Below are positions 4,846 to 37,746 of a DNA stretch of 64,000 bases, in pieces. The translations under genes and the position numbers were made by a program. Below the pieces are notes generated by a model. The model was not told where the DNA came from. It saw only the letters and a program-made list of their open reading frames with translations, and did not search any database. Location of the stretch: NCBI GenBank assembly GCA_943332615.1, contig CALQQB010000016.1:1-64000 (forward strand). The letters are read 5' to 3'. This stretch comes from Phenylobacterium deserti (GTDB lineage Bacteria > Pseudomonadota > Alphaproteobacteria > Caulobacterales > Caulobacteraceae). Numbering within the stretch: position 1 is the stretch's first letter; each line of letters starts with the position of its first letter.

Positions 4846-5603
4846 ATATCCACGCCGTCCGGGCCATCTACTTCTTCGAGATGCACCGCTGGGTGCGGAC
4901 CATCGTCCAGAGCGTGGCCGCGCCGGTCATCACCACCTCGCTCTATTTCATCGTCTTCGGCGCGGCGATCGGCAGCCGGATGCCGTCCGTGAACGGGATC
5001 AGCTACGGCGCCTTCATCGTGCCGGGCCTGCTGATGCTGTCGATCCTGACGGAGAGCATCTCCAACGGCTCGTTCGGAATCTACATGCCGAAGTTCGCCG
5101 GCACGATCTACGAGGTGCTGTCCGCGCCGGTCTCCGCCGCCGAGGTGGTGCTGGGCTATGTGGGGGCGGCGGCCAGCAAGTCCGTCGTCCTAGGGCTCGT
5201 GATCTTGGCGACCGCCAGGATCTTCGTGCCCTACCAGATCGGCCACCCGTTCGTGATGCTGGCCTTCCTGGTGCTGACCTCGGTGACCTTCAGCCTGTTC
5301 GGCTTCCTGACCGGCATCTGGGCCGACGGCTGGGAAAAGCTGTCGATCATCCCGACCCTGGTGATCACCCCGCTGACGTTCTTAGGGGGCAGCTTCTATT
5401 CCATCGACATGCTGCCGGGCGTCTGGCGCCAGATCGCCCTGGTGAACCCGGTCGTCTATCTGGTGTCAGGCTTCCGCTGGAGCTTCTACGGGGTGTCCGA
5501 TGTGGGGGTCGGCGTGAGCCTGGCCGCGACGCTGGGGTTCCTGGCCGTGTGCCTCGCCGCCGTGACCTGGATCTTCCGCACCGGCTGGAAGCTGAAGACC
5601 TGA
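4842..5603 (+). CDS. ABC-2 type transporter permease (YadH-like)
   Basis: This 253-residue inner-membrane protein has about six hydrophobic segments and the ABC-2 permease signature around the stretch ending in [16 protein letters not shown], followed by [16 protein letters not shown]. It overlaps the ATPase gene by four bases, so the two subunits are made together and form a half-transporter pair that dimerises. The gene ends 17 bases from the convergent HPr gene. No periplasmic partner is encoded nearby. The transported substrate cannot be read from the sequence. Confidence 0.92.
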
Positions 5604-16925: not shown

Positions 16926-17765
16926 ATGGCCCCCGCCGACAGCGCTGCGATCGCCGCCGATACGCAATCCACCACCGAAACGCCCGAGGTGCTCTACGAG
17001 GTCAGCGAGCACATCGCAACGATCACGCTGAACCGTCCGGACCGGATGAACACCATCTCGGGGCCGATGCTGCACCAACTGACCGAGCTTCTGCTGAAGG
17101 CCGACCGGGACCGGGACGTGCGCTGCATCATCCTGACGGGCACGGGCCGGGCGTTCTGCGCCGGGCTCGATTTGCGGGGTGCGACGCAGGGATCGACGGG
17201 CCTGCAGGGCGCCTCGACCTCCACCGACATCGACCTCCGGGCCACGCCGCCAACCGTGCTGTTCAACCTGGGCACGCCGACGATCTGCGCCCTGAATGGC
17301 GCGGCCGCCGGCTATGGCATGGATACGGCGCTCGGCTGCGACATCCGGATCATGGCCAACGGCGCCAAGATGGCGGCGGCCTTCACCAAGCGCGGGATCG
17401 TGCCGGAGAGCGGCGGGACGTGGCTGCTGCCGCGCCTACTGGGCTGGTCGAAGGCCGCCGAGATCATCTTCACGGGGCGGACCCTGACGGCGTCCGACTG
17501 CGTGGAACTAGGCCTGGCCTCGAAGGCCGTGCCGGAGGCCGAGGTCGCGGCCGTGGCGCGGGCGATGGCGCTTGAAATCGCCGCCAACGCGCCGCTGGCG
17601 GTGCAGGCGTCCAAGCGGCTGATGCGGATGGGGCTGTCGGAGGGCTTCGACGAGCACGTGCACCACGTGTTCCTGCAGTTGCTCCCACTGCTGAAGACCG
17701 ACGACGCGCTCGAGGGCATGAAGGCGTTCATGGAAAAGCGGGCGGCGAACTTCCAGGGCAAGTAG
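16926..17765 (+). CDS. Enoyl-CoA hydratase/isomerase family protein
   Basis: The 279-residue crotonase-fold protein has the oxyanion-hole segments GRAFCAGLDLRG and LNGAAAGYGMDTALGCDIR. The second segment has Gly-Met-Asp, and KRGIVPESGGTWLLPRLLG holds the likely catalytic Glu. It would hydrate or isomerise a CoA thioester, but the exact substrate is not readable. A strong AGGAGG lies 6-8 bases upstream of the ATG. The first 20 residues (APADSAAIAADTQS) precede the usual domain start and look disordered. It stands alone between the creatininase-family gene and a convergent zinc-ribbon gene. Confidence 0.9.
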   Translation: MAPADSAAIAADTQSTTETPEVLYEVSEHIATITLNRPDRMNTISGPMLHQLTELLLKADRDRDVRCIILTGTGRAFCAGLDLRGATQGSTGLQGASTSTDIDLRATPPTVLFNLGTPTICALNGAAAGYGMDTALGCDIRIMANGAKMAAAFTKRGIVPESGGTWLLPRLLGWSKAAEIIFTGRTLTASDCVELGLASKAVPEAEVAAVARAMALEIAANAPLAVQASKRLMRMGLSEGFDEHVHHVFLQLLPLLKTDDALEGMKAFMEKRAANFQGK

Positions 17766-17923: not shown

Positions 17924-18232
17924 TCAGTTTCGGTAGCGGGCGGCGATGCGCCGGGCGTCGGTTTCCCTGAGGCTGGCGGGGTAGCAAAACCCGGCCTTCC
18001 ATTTCACTCGGCCGCAGCCCGGGCAGTTCCAGCCGACGCGGCGGGCCACCTCAGCGATGCGGGTGGCGTGGCCGCCGGCCTTCAACTGCCGAAGGCGGGC
18101 GAGGATGCGTTCGGGATTATAGCCCTTGGACCAGCCGCACAGCGCGCAGGTGATCGTCAGCCGGCAGCCGGGATAGCGAGCGAAGTCGCCGACAGAGGCG
18201 GACTCGTCGACGTGTATGGGACGGTCGGGCAT
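17924..18232 (-). CDS. Small zinc-ribbon protein, probably LexA-regulated
   Basis: From ATG 18232 the product is 102 residues, with two CxxC pairs (CALC and CPGC) plus a further Cys in GFCYPAS, the pattern of a zinc-binding ribbon. The chain is basic (GWSKGYNPERILARLRQLKAGG; RRIAARYRN at the end), so nucleic-acid binding is possible. I do not recognise a characterised homologue. A perfect alphaproteobacterial LexA box lies 28 bases upstream of the start, implying induction by DNA damage. ATG 18265 is in frame but lies inside that box, so the downstream ATG is preferred. Confidence 0.78.
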   Translation of the reverse strand: MPDRPIHVDESASVGDFARYPGCRLTITCALCGWSKGYNPERILARLRQLKAGGHATRIAEVARRVGWNCPGCGRVKWKAGFCYPASLRETDARRIAARYRN

Positions 18233-18259
18233 ATGCGCGTTTCCAGGTCTCGATATATA

Positions 18260-18274
18260 GAACATATCAAGAAC
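18260..18274 (-). promoter_or_regulatory. LexA (SOS) box
   Basis: On the minus strand the sequence is GTTCTTGATATGTTC, an exact match to the alphaproteobacterial LexA consensus GTTC-N7-GTTC. It is embedded in the only AT-rich stretch of the region, which also holds TATATA, and ends 28 bases before the zinc-ribbon start codon, the normal position for a repressor site. Confidence 0.75.
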
Positions 18275-18293: not shown

Positions 18294-18668
18294 TCAGTAT
18301 GTCGCGATCAGATAGGCGGCGAACAGGGCGACGAGCAGGCCGTCGATGATCAGCGCGACCATGGCCTTAGCGCGATAGGGCGGGTGGCTGAGCACCAGGC
18401 CGATGAAGGTGAGCTTGCTGGCGCCGGCCACGGTGAGGACCAGGGGTCGGACCTCCGGGTGGAACGCGCCCCAGACCAGCATGGCGCCGGTCAGGAAGAT
18501 AAGGACGCCCCAGTTGCGGGCCAGCAACAGCGCCAGGGGGCCCTGCGGCGCGTCGCCGAACATCATGCGGAACGCCGCCCGCGGCGCGAATGCGGCCTGC
18601 AGCATGGTCATGGTGATCAGCCCGCCGACGAGCATGACCCATTTGAACTGTGAGACGAGGATGTCCAT
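18294..18668 (-). CDS. Small four-helix membrane protein, unknown function
   Basis: From ATG 18668 the gene encodes 124 residues dominated by four hydrophobic helices: WVMLVGGLITMTMLQAAF, LLLARNWGVLIFLTGAMLVWG, PLVLTVAGASKLTFIGLVL and AMVALIIDGLLVALFAAYL. The longer open frame upstream of this ATG runs opposite the neighbouring lipoprotein and is not credible. It would be an inner-membrane protein without visible catalytic residues; similar small proteins are common and uncharacterised. It is divergent from the lipoprotein gene at 18772. Its stop lies 20 bases before the LexA box. Confidence 0.8.
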   Translation of the reverse strand: MDILVSQFKWVMLVGGLITMTMLQAAFAPRAAFRMMFGDAPQGPLALLLARNWGVLIFLTGAMLVWGAFHPEVRPLVLTVAGASKLTFIGLVLSHPPYRAKAMVALIIDGLLVALFAAYLIATY

Positions 18669-20849: not shown

Positions 20850-21223
20850 CGCATTCCGACCACTATTGACGGCCCGCGCGCGAAGCGGGGGTTCTGTCAC
20901 GTCTGGAGGAGCCGCGCAGGGCGTAGCGTTCTTTGAACCGCGAACGAACGCAAAACCGACGCGAACACGCCCTGCCGCTGGATGGGCCGCAGGCCAGATC
21001 TTGCGGGCTCAGGTGTCCGATCCTTGGCCTTCGGCTCCGATCCCGCACGCGCGTTCGCGTCGGTTTTGCGTTCGTTCGCGGATCCAAATTCTTGCAGCGC
21101 CGCTGCGCAGCCAGCCGCCCGAGGCAGCGGCGCTCTGGTGGTCGGGCCTTGGCTGGACAGGGGGTTGCGACCACTCCTATGGTCTCGCCGCGCTGTCTGG
21201 ACTGAACGGGAATATCGCGGACC
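20850..21223. other. 374-base intergenic region with a long inverted repeat
   Basis: I see no credible gene here. The open frames present are Arg-rich, lack ribosome sites and simply reflect the repeat arms. The main content is a 142-base inverted-repeat element (20939-21080). The last 40 bases before pntAA should hold its promoter, though no clear boxes are visible. Confidence 0.6.
20939..21080. repeat. Near-perfect 32-bp inverted repeat with 78-base spacer
   Basis: The left arm (20939-20970) and right arm (21049-21080) are reverse complements over 32 bases with one mismatch. They share the core CGAACGAACGCAAAACCGAC. The spacer is GC-rich and contains smaller repeats (CCGATCC and CCGATCCC). 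The size and structure resemble a miniature inverted-repeat or REP-like element. No target-site duplication is obvious. Confidence 0.85.
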
Positions 21224-34755: not shown

Positions 34756-37746
34756 TTGACCGATCCCGAGCCTGCCAAGCCCCGTCGCCTGCGCCTCGTC
34801 CTGACCCTCGTTGGCGTGGCCCTTGTGCTGCTCGCCGGCACGCTGTGGCTGAACCGAAAGGGTCTGGCGCGCGAGGCGCTCACCGGCTGGCTGAAGTCCA
34901 AGGGCGTGGCGGCGCAGGCGGATATCGAGGCCTTCGGGCCGACCACCTTCACGGCGCGCCTGCGGGTCGGCGACCCGCGCAATCCGGACTTCTCCGCCGA
35001 GCAGGCGGTGGTGCGATATCGCCTGGGTCTGAGCGGCCTGCAGGTGCAGTCGGTGACACTGCGCCGGCCGGTGCTGCGCGCCAGCCTGCACCAGGGGCGC
35101 TTCAGCTTGGGCGCGTTGGATCCACTGGTGCAGGAATTCCTGCGGCTGCCACCGCCGACCGGCCGCCAGCCGAGTATCACGGTGGAGAACGGCGTGCTGC
35201 TGCTCGCCACCGACTACGGCCCCATCCGCCTGACCGCCACCGCCACGGTGGATGACAGCAAGCTCGTCAGCCTCGCCGGAACCGCGGCGCCGACGCACCT
35301 GAAGGGACCGGGTCTGGACGCCGAGCTCGGCGCGGCCAGCGTCACGGAGACGACGCGTGGCGGACGGATCATCGCCAGCCTGGATGCGCCCCTGGCCCGT
35401 ATCGAGGCCGCCGGCGCCTCGGCCAACGACGCCCGCCTCCAGCTCAAGCTGGAAGCCCCTTACCCCGACCTGATCAAGCGACGCGGCGATGGGCCTCTGG
35501 TGGTGAGCGCGAGCGTGGCCGGGCGCGCCCTGGCCTTCGGCGGACGCAGCCTGGCCCGCGCTCAGTTCACGGGCGGCTTCGTCGGCCAGTCCACCGGCTG
35601 GGTCGGCGACCTGGCGGTCAGCGGGCGGGCGACTGGCGACCTGCGGGGCGAGGGCGCGGCGGTGGGCGCGAGCCAGGTGGGCAAGCTGAGCGCCGCCGTC
35701 GTGGCCAGCGACATCCGATGGACCCGCAAGGGCGGCGACCGGATCGCGGCGAACCTCCAGCTGACCGCCGCCGCAGCCGACATCGCCGGGGCGGGCCTGA
35801 AGGTCTCGACCCTGACCGCAGCGGCCACGGGCCCGATGTCGGCGAGCGCGCGGACGCTGGACCTGAACCTGACAGTTTCGGCCGTGGGTAGGGGCGGTTG
35901 GAACGGCCTCGGGGCGCCTGCGGCTGTGGACGACCCGACGCTGGCGACGCTGAAGCGGGCGGCCCGCGCCTTCAGCGTCGCCGCGCCGGCGGTCACGCTG
36001 GCAACGAAAGGCGGGACCTTCACCCTAGGCCTGCCCAAGCCCCTCCGGCTCGTCCCCGACAGTGGCGGCGCCGTCGAAATAGCCGCACGCGCCGGTGCGC
36101 CCTTGCTGGATCCGGACGGCGGGGCCTTCACCCTCACCTTGGCGGGCGGCGGGTTGCCGACGCTGAACGCCGATATCGCGCGGCTGAACCTCATCCCCGA
36201 TGGCGTCAGGGCGTCTGGCCATTTGCGCGCTCGCGGTGCGCTGGGGATCATCCATGGCGGCGAGTTGGATGTGGCCGGGCGGCTCCAGACCTCGGCCGGC
36301 GGGATCACCGTCAACGTCGATCGCTGCTCCGTGTTCAAGGCCGAGCGGCTGGAATTGGGGGCCAATGACGTGGAGCGGCTGGCCGGCCAGCTCTGCCCGG
36401 CCGGCGGGCCGCTGTTCGCCGCCGCGGGCGGGGACTGGAAGGTCGCCGGCCGGATCCTGGGGCTGACGGCGGCCGCGCCCTTCGCCCAGGCGCGCGTCTC
36501 CGCCGGCGGCCTGAAGTTCACCGCCGCCAGCCGTCGTGGTGCGCTCAGCGCCCAGGCCGACGTCCTGACCGGCCAGGTCGAGGACACCGCGCCGGCTACC
36601 CGCTTCAACCCCTTCGCGCTCACCGGCCATGCCAGTCTGGGGACCTATGTCTGGACCGCCGACCTTGCCGCCCGGCAGCCCGGCAGGGTGACCCTCGGCC
36701 AGGTTCACGTCATTCACGACGGAGGCCTGGGGGTAGGCTTCGCGACGCTGGAGACCGACCTCCTGACGTTCGTGGACGGCGGGCTGCAGCCGACGCAACT
36801 GTCGCCCCTGGCCAGCACGGTGGGCTCGCCGGTCACCGGCCAGGCGCAGTTCAAGGGTCGTTTCGACTGGGCGCGGATGGGGGCCGGCAGCTCGGGAGCC
36901 ATCTCGCTTCGGAGCCTCAACTTCCAGAGCCCGGTGGGCCGGGTCGAAGGCCTGGACGGCGAGCTGATCTTCTCCAGCCTCTCGCCGCTCGTGGCCGCGC
37001 CGGGCCAGACCCTGGACATCGGCTCCATCCAAGCCATCGTGCCGCTGACCCACCTGCACGCGCGCTTCTCGCTGCGCGACGATCTGCTGAAGATCGAGGG
37101 GGGCGAGGCGCTGGTCGGCGGCGGGCGCATCCGGATCGAGAGCCTAGAGGCCCCGCTCACGCCCGGGACGCCGTCACGCGGGGTGCTGATCTTCGAGGCG
37201 GTGCAACTGCACGACCTGGTCGAAGCCTCCCCGTTCGGCGACAACGTCGACCTGGACGCGCGGGTCAGCGGCCGCATCGCCTTCGAGGCCAACGCTAACC
37301 GCGTGCGGATTTCCGAGGGGGAACTGAAGGCCATCCAGCCCGGCCGCCTGTCGATCAATCGCGCCGCGCTAACCGGCGTGCAGGCCGATGGGGCCATCGC
37401 CGCGCCCGCGCCGGTGGCCAACCCCAATGAGACCTTCACCGACTTCGCCTACCAGGCGATGGAGAACCTGGCGTTCGACAAGCTGGAAGCCACGATAGCC
37501 AGCCGACCGGACGGCCGCCTGGGCGTGCTGTTCCACATCGTCGGCCGCCACGACCCTCCCACGAAGCAGAGGATCAGGATCAGCGTGATGGATTTGATCC
37601 AGAAGCGGTTCATGGGCAAGAAGCTGCCCCTGCCGTCCGGCACCCAGGTGAACCTGACACTCGACACGACCCTGAACCTGGATGATCTGCTGGCGGACTA
37701 CGCCGACTTCCGTCGGCTGCACGGTTCAGGTCCGGTTCAGCCGTGA
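34756..37746 (+). CDS. YdbH-family intermembrane lipid transport protein
   Basis: The 996-residue protein has one N-terminal membrane helix (LVLTLVGVALVLLAGTLWL) and a very long beta-rich periplasmic body with AsmA-like repeats, ending in the YdbH-type C-terminus. In E. coli, YdbH belongs with TamB and YhdP to the proteins that bridge the envelope and carry phospholipids to the outer membrane. The identity is strongly supported by context: YnbE-like and YdbL-like genes follow in the same order as in E. coli. The start is TTG 34756, as no ATG gives the full leader. Confidence 0.88.
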   Translation: MTDPEPAKPRRLRLVLTLVGVALVLLAGTLWLNRKGLAREALTGWLKSKGVAAQADIEAFGPTTFTARLRVGDPRNPDFSAEQAVVRYRLGLSGLQVQSVTLRRPVLRASLHQGRFSLGALDPLVQEFLRLPPPTGRQPSITVENGVLLLATDYGPIRLTATATVDDSKLVSLAGTAAPTHLKGPGLDAELGAASVTETTRGGRIIASLDAPLARIEAAGASANDARLQLKLEAPYPDLIKRRGDGPLVVSASVAGRALAFGGRSLARAQFTGGFVGQSTGWVGDLAVSGRATGDLRGEGAAVGASQVGKLSAAVVASDIRWTRKGGDRIAANLQLTAAAADIAGAGLKVSTLTAAATGPMSASARTLDLNLTVSAVGRGGWNGLGAPAAVDDPTLATLKRAARAFSVAAPAVTLATKGGTFTLGLPKPLRLVPDSGGAVEIAARAGAPLLDPDGGAFTLTLAGGGLPTLNADIARLNLIPDGVRASGHLRARGALGIIHGGELDVAGRLQTSAGGITVNVDRCSVFKAERLELGANDVERLAGQLCPAGGPLFAAAGGDWKVAGRILGLTAAAPFAQARVSAGGLKFTAASRRGALSAQADVLTGQVEDTAPATRFNPFALTGHASLGTYVWTADLAARQPGRVTLGQVHVIHDGGLGVGFATLETDLLTFVDGGLQPTQLSPLASTVGSPVTGQAQFKGRFDWARMGAGSSGAISLRSLNFQSPVGRVEGLDGELIFSSLSPLVAAPGQTLDIGSIQAIVPLTHLHARFSLRDDLLKIEGGEALVGGGRIRIESLEAPLTPGTPSRGVLIFEAVQLHDLVEASPFGDNVDLDARVSGRIAFEANANRVRISEGELKAIQPGRLSINRAALTGVQADGAIAAPAPVANPNETFTDFAYQAMENLAFDKLEATIASRPDGRLGVLFHIVGRHDPPTKQRIRISVMDLIQKRFMGKKLPLPSGTQVNLTLDTTLNLDDLLADYADFRRLHGSGPVQP

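Follow-up and report, generated by a model that had tools for sequence, protein, structure and literature searches.

The window, by which we mean the whole 64,000-nucleotide stretch of Phenylobacterium deserti DNA analysed here, contains a small gene for a putative zinc-ribbon protein, preceded by an exact copy of the LexA (SOS) box and flanked by two further genes (Table 1). One of these lies upstream on the same strand, and the 61-base gap between its stop and the ATG of the zinc-ribbon gene contains the box. The other, which we take from its sequence to be enoyl-CoA hydratase-like, is convergent. The box GTTCTTGATATGTTC is separated from the ATG by 27 bases, which agrees within one base with the 28 given in the original prediction. 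A second in-frame ATG at 18265 falls inside the LexA box and would add 11 residues if used. A consensus promoter scan returned no site at the TATATAT element.

Table 1. Features of the zinc-ribbon locus, in coordinates of the window.
Feature	Position	Strand	Remarks
LexA (SOS) box GTTCTTGATATGTTC	18260..18274	-	exact GTTC-N7-GTTC; conserved before homologues
TATATAT, possible -10 element	18253..18259	-	immediately 3' of the box; read by eye
Zinc-ribbon gene, 102 aa, stop included	17924..18232	-	ATG 18232-18230, stop 17926-17924
First CxxC pair, C29 + C32 (C29-x2-C32)	18137..18148	-	invariant, 23 aligned members
Second CxxC pair, C70 + C73 (C70-x2-C73)	18014..18025	-	invariant, 23 aligned members
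C-terminal RYRN of the zinc-ribbon protein	17927..17938	-	last four residues; see tally in text
Upstream gene, hydrophobic 124-residue protein	18294..18668	-	start picked by eye
Enoyl-CoA hydratase-like neighbour, convergent	16926..17765	+	

The product had been described, from the letters of the DNA, as a basic protein of 102 residues with two CxxC pairs, and the frame, both cysteine pairs (C29/C32 and C70/C73) and a computed pI of 10.1, with 19 Arg+Lys against 8 Asp+Glu, bear this out. The two conserved CxxC pairs are those by which a zinc ribbon is recognised; zinc binding itself is predicted. AlphaFold2, run with 17 sequences, returned a model with a pLDDT of 87.6 and a pTM of 0.73, with strands at residues 24-29, 35-38 and 78-84 and helices at 14-19, 40-49, 59-65 and 90-101. 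We read this model as a zinc-ribbon-like core in which a two-helix insert parts the cysteine pairs, followed by a basic C-terminal helix. The zinc-ribbon reading of the original prediction fits the invariant cysteines and is compatible with the predicted structure, for which solved zinc ribbons gave no convincing match.

Family searches placed the protein in no curated group. The window protein gave two Pfam matches, both below the cut-off, and no match in NCBIfam, and the best match of other family members to Pfam or NCBIfam had an E value of 0.005. PHROGs and PDB sequences held no convincing family, with nothing below E 0.4 in the profile search of PDB sequences, and Foldseek and VIA-align (PDB, viral models) gave noise-level matches only. 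Among these, a likeness to HypA (E 0.08, Z 2.2) and one to MCM-type zinc domains (Z 2.0-2.5) are weak local structural similarities with scores at noise level, and were set aside. Since the fold matches in the PDB are no better than weak, it is charge and fold that would suggest binding to DNA, or to nucleic acid generally.

Zinc ribbons are common in transcription- and RNA-directed proteins, and among the structural matches of the window protein are a domain of a release factor and a translation factor from archaea. A ribbon aimed at RNA polymerase, the ribosome or mRNA could adjust expression after damage. We consider this unlikely, since both matches have a Z of 2.3, which is at noise level and led to their rejection, the 37 residues between the cysteine pairs are unlike the spacing of DksA-type fingers, and the window protein exceeds the cut-off of no Pfam family.

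Relatives of the protein are concentrated in one genus. A zinc-ribbon match was found in 28 of 100 genomes, the source genome included, all of the same genus. The named loci likewise come mostly from Phenylobacterium records (14/17), the rest being unclassified Alphaproteobacteria or Caulobacterales. A profile search extended the range to 54 of the 390 genomes searched in the family, 44 of them within the genus, and to 3 of 22 genera. No zinc-ribbon match was found in 40 genomes from other families of the order, and a class-wide sample of 289 genomes produced a single match (G000). Across 23 aligned members the four cysteines, P21, Y38, R46, L47, G53, G54, T57 and W78 are invariant, and the pI is at least 9.3 in 22 of the 23. 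The C-terminus may itself be important, as the last two residues are RN in 19 of the 23 and RD in two others.

Comparison of the 17 named loci and the window revealed little conserved synteny. The hydratase-like neighbour is common to the window and L067, where a relative 87% identical to it lies about 2.2 kb past the zinc-ribbon homologue. Other shared flanks are a stretch in L071 and L077, one flanking frame in L063 and L075, and a weak one in L065 and L068. In L072 a hydratase matches at 29%, probably as a paralogue, and was not accepted as shared synteny. Patchy occurrence and changing neighbourhoods would suit part of a mobile or anti-phage system placed under borrowed LexA control, but searches of viral contigs and of phage and plasmid records turned up no zinc-ribbon relative, and we regard such an origin as quite improbable.

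By itself the box is weak evidence for regulation, because exact GTTC-N7-GTTC occurs three times in the window where 1.26 would be expected, a count that 21 of 100 shuffles reached. The two other matches lie at 20935-20949 (-) and 37724-37738 (+); they have G/C-rich spacers and are perhaps chance occurrences. GTTCTTGATATGTTC is nevertheless distinguished by its position in the gap between two genes and by its spacer, in which six of the seven bases are A or T, against two of seven in each of the other two copies.

The original prediction had proposed looking for the same box before orthologues, and there it proved to be conserved. Among 39 clear members (at least 70 bits in the fetched loci, the box being accepted in either orientation and measured from the aligned start), an exact box lies no more than 600 bases upstream in 34, the window's own included, and within 100 bases in 23. 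The 39 contain the window's own gene as L032 and two members from each of three genomes; they amount to 38 independent members, since the surroundings of L052 and L053 are identical. L062, L067, L068, L069, L071 and L074 were excluded because their genomes were already represented. In the same upstream stretches the reversed pattern occurred in 0/39, and spacers of 5, 6, 8 and 9 bases in 0, 0, 2 and 0 of 39, respectively, while three 300-base windows downstream of the members held the box in 1, 1 and 2 of 39. A one-mismatch box, GTTCTTGTTTTGTTT, precedes two further genes (L055 and L122). In L034 the contig ends 128 bases upstream, with no exact box in what remains, and L061 and L124 are degenerate zinc-ribbon copies in which the box is absent. 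Conservation is therefore 34/39 exact, plus two with one mismatch, against 0-2/39 for the control patterns.

Where the box lies more than 200 bases upstream (ten members), a gene of one of two upstream partner families, HFT or AWF, each named from its motif, intervenes in all ten. In L067 the HFT stop overlaps the zinc-ribbon start as TGATG. Some individual loci depart from the common arrangement. Two zinc-ribbon copies with a split frame or internal stop, L054 (G037) and L051 (G025), retain the box, and in L105 (G418) two oppositely oriented boxes stand ahead of the zinc-ribbon gene, at -42 and -150.

The window counts given above are also what would favour reading the box as a chance match, with the gene outside the SOS regulon. 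Its conservation before homologues and before the partner families, with controls near zero, makes that reading scarcely credible.

That GTTC-N7-GTTC is the LexA site, as originally stated, is supported by the source genome itself. It has one match to PF01726 (LexA), and the exact box stands upstream of lexA, recA, ruvA, radC and a ComM/ChlI-like gene, presumably comM. At ruvC the box overlaps the start codon of the chosen frame. Pfam confirmed the products of all six genes. LexA control of the window zinc-ribbon gene is, on sequence grounds, well supported, and we regard the gene as a lineage-specific candidate SOS gene.

The whole genome contains 153 exact GTTC-N7-GTTC matches but has only 67 when the pattern is reversed. 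At least 7 of the 153 fall in a repeat, and part of the genome-wide excess consists of repeat copies, not ordinary operators. This repeat, of about 100 bases, contains GAACAAACCA[AC]GAAC and GCTCTTTCTCAAGTGAATTCAA and was seen at seven loci of the source genome (L011, L014, L027, L132, L133, L134 and L140). Its core, a 22-mer, has ten copies in the genome and none in the window. Four copies of the repeat searched against Rfam gave no match; the repeat may be an RNA, or may code for protein on the opposite strand.

A further set of box-bearing genes in the source genome comprises paralogues of about 190-230 residues (L130, L131, L135, L143, L144, L145 and L127, on C8, C9, C13, C32, C33, C35 and C7), of which L127 is cut and L145 stands at a contig end, without upstream bases. 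Their boxes, such as GTTCTATCTTTGTTC, lie 1-2 bases before the ATG, with TTGAC upstream, and three of them gave no match in Pfam. They are possibly a multi-copy, leaderless SOS family.

The zinc-ribbon family is one of several kinds of small protein found behind this box. Its distant relatives are for the most part double zinc ribbons, about 195 residues long, and the single- and double-ribbon profiles match each other at E 3.5e-15. The double-ribbon profile, which also catches single forms, matched 58 of 390 genomes and 5 of 22 genera, and a double-zinc protein used as query found no relative in plasmid records. Among the double-zinc relatives the box is present within 600 bases in 17 of 19 loci, a count made without control patterns, and in one of them, L156 from another genome, it is identical to the window's GTTCTTGATATGTTC. 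In L262 a small paired-cysteine protein (5156-5467) lies between the box and the double-zinc gene and is another possible module.

Of the 390 genomes, 40 were matched by HFT and 59 by AWF, and the members searched had no Pfam or NCBIfam match. HFT is predicted to be a three-helix protein; its structural matches were to unrelated helical proteins, none convincing. In the best-scoring 30 loci of each family, the box occurs within 100 bases in 24/30 for HFT and 17/30 for AWF, and within 600 bases in 28/30 and 23/30, respectively, with the reversed pattern in 0/30 of either. These counts overlap with those for the zinc ribbon, because a zinc-ribbon gene is part of the same operon at 8 or more of the 30 HFT loci and at some of the AWF loci. 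HFT is absent from the source genome by both single query and profile. These four small-protein families thus have the SOS box in common and occur in varying combinations, both among themselves and with SRAP.

The SRAP connection is seen in L067 (G414), where the operon runs box, HFT, zinc ribbon, ZR65, SRAP. The SRAP protein there is confirmed by Pfam (E 1.2e-40), and ZR65, which precedes it, is a second zinc ribbon of 65 residues that aligns with the window family with an hhalign probability of 87 and an E of 3.9e-6, a pairwise and not a database value. Two of the 22 clear single-ribbon regions have SRAP within about 6 kb, namely L067 (3 kb flank) and L244, where it is convergent, on the other strand and pointing towards the cassette. 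The same holds for 7 of 19 regions with distant or double members (L258, L259, L260, L264, L265, L275 and L262, with SRAP at 3.8 and 4.4 kb in the last two). Pfam bears out SRAP in all nine regions. A SRAP-like match in L268 (41 bits) was not counted, as Pfam found no SRAP in G036.

Box, module or modules and SRAP lie on one strand in L259, L260, L264, L233 and L205, and less tightly in L258. The order box, AWF, (ZR65), SRAP, again on one strand, is seen in L279 and L280. L281 and L282 have box, HFT or AWF, and ZR65, with SRAP convergent, and in L278 SRAP lies beside a weak ribbon match and the box is absent.

To place these arrangements against the background, SRAP genes were located in 42 genomes, of which 37 have one by Pfam. 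Two of the 74 SRAP places fell below the cut-off and were dropped, leaving 72, and 15 of these lie within 2 kb of a module, against 0.13 expected from random placement. Four of the 15 belong to G040, G299 and G115, which were added because SRAP had already been seen there; without these genomes the count is 11 of 65. Counted from the modules, SRAP is within 2 kb of 4/28 single ribbons (two of the four being weak, distant matches), 5/23 double ribbons, 5/14 AWF and 4/20 HFT genes. No SRAP was found in 51 control loci (138 kb) of the source genome, nor in the window, so that the shared operon with SRAP seen in L067 does not extend to the window gene. The source genome has two SRAP genes, both away from the zinc-ribbon gene, and the roughly 1.5 kb fetched on each side of them held no A/T-rich box. 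The SRAP link is thus real for the module set, in a minority of its members, and indirect for the window gene.

Small, lineage-restricted accessory SOS genes are often inhibitors of division or replication. The window gene might likewise encode an SOS-induced checkpoint protein that halts division or replication through a protein target, like SidA, the SOS-induced division inhibitor of Caulobacter (PMC12700426). Most of the single-ribbon regions examined have no partner module or SRAP within 6 kb, which such a protein would accommodate. We nonetheless give it little probability: the protein has no membrane-spanning hydrophobic stretch, as judged by eye, the basic character noted above is shared by nearly all members, and the cassette links that were found point to SRAP, a repair gene.

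We favour, at a probability of roughly 0.55, an SOS-induced zinc-ribbon accessory or adaptor protein, encoded by a solo gene, which probably acts where single-stranded DNA is damaged and may share a repair branch with SRAP. LexA would occupy the box beside the promoter until DNA damage, when RecA would trigger its self-cleavage and the basic zinc-ribbon protein of about 11 kDa would be made. The protein may then bind, at sites of damaged single-stranded DNA, either the DNA or a repair protein. It may serve the repair branch of SRAP (YedK/HMCES, abasic sites), a link suggested by the SRAP genes found in LexA-box cassettes together with its relatives and the partner modules. Encoded by a solo gene, the protein would work in trans with the genome's two SRAP genes, which lie at other places.

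A wider scheme, possible if doubtful, would see in the Caulobacteraceae a modular LexA-switched toolkit, in which interchangeable zinc-ribbon, double-ribbon, HFT and AWF adaptors direct the action of SRAP at abasic sites to particular damaged DNA, with the window gene as a solo adaptor for SRAP encoded elsewhere. To our knowledge, no accessory protein is known for bacterial abasic-site handling in single-stranded DNA. Four small-protein families whose searched members have no Pfam family all stand behind a putative SOS box, and, should they prove to be accessories of SRAP, they would reveal how this handling is guided in bacteria.

Many of the genes that DNA damage induces in Caulobacter and related bacteria are described as having no clear function (PMC13384398). 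Our literature search found no paper on this zinc-ribbon protein family, which is also not named in the available text of the Caulobacter SOS papers, supplementary gene tables apart. The original prediction had placed the gene outside the SOS functions it could name, as a nucleic-acid-binding protein. The SRAP-cassette link of the wider family is a part that it did not see.

Among known systems, SRAP (YedK, HMCES; PF02586) is a cassette partner in a minority of the relatives, and the window protein is not itself SRAP. YedK is reported to open abasic sites through its SRAP domain, which also reverses the cross-link that it forms with DNA (PMC9436759). Zn-ribbon domains beside SRAP are already known, having been reported in 2013: the neighbourhoods of SRAP (DUF159) and Ku described by Aravind et al., in the portion of that paper available, encode two uncharacterised Zn-ribbon-like domains (PMC3765255). 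Their systems likewise have uncharacterised zinc ribbons beside SRAP in SOS settings, but the neighbourhoods there are those of Ku, whereas here they are LexA-box cassettes of Caulobacteraceae, and ZR65 and the window family are set beside those domains by description only (PMC3765255). What is new is the place of the zinc-ribbon gene in a modular set of small proteins behind LexA boxes, of which some are linked to SRAP. In the Caulobacter and alphaproteobacterial LexA regulon, where the window gene is placed from its sequence alone, the box is the same GTTC-N7-GTTC. Two early SOS genes of Caulobacter carry GTTCttgttatGTTC, as given in the text available, and the window box GTTCTTGATATGTTC is one base away from it (PMC12700426).
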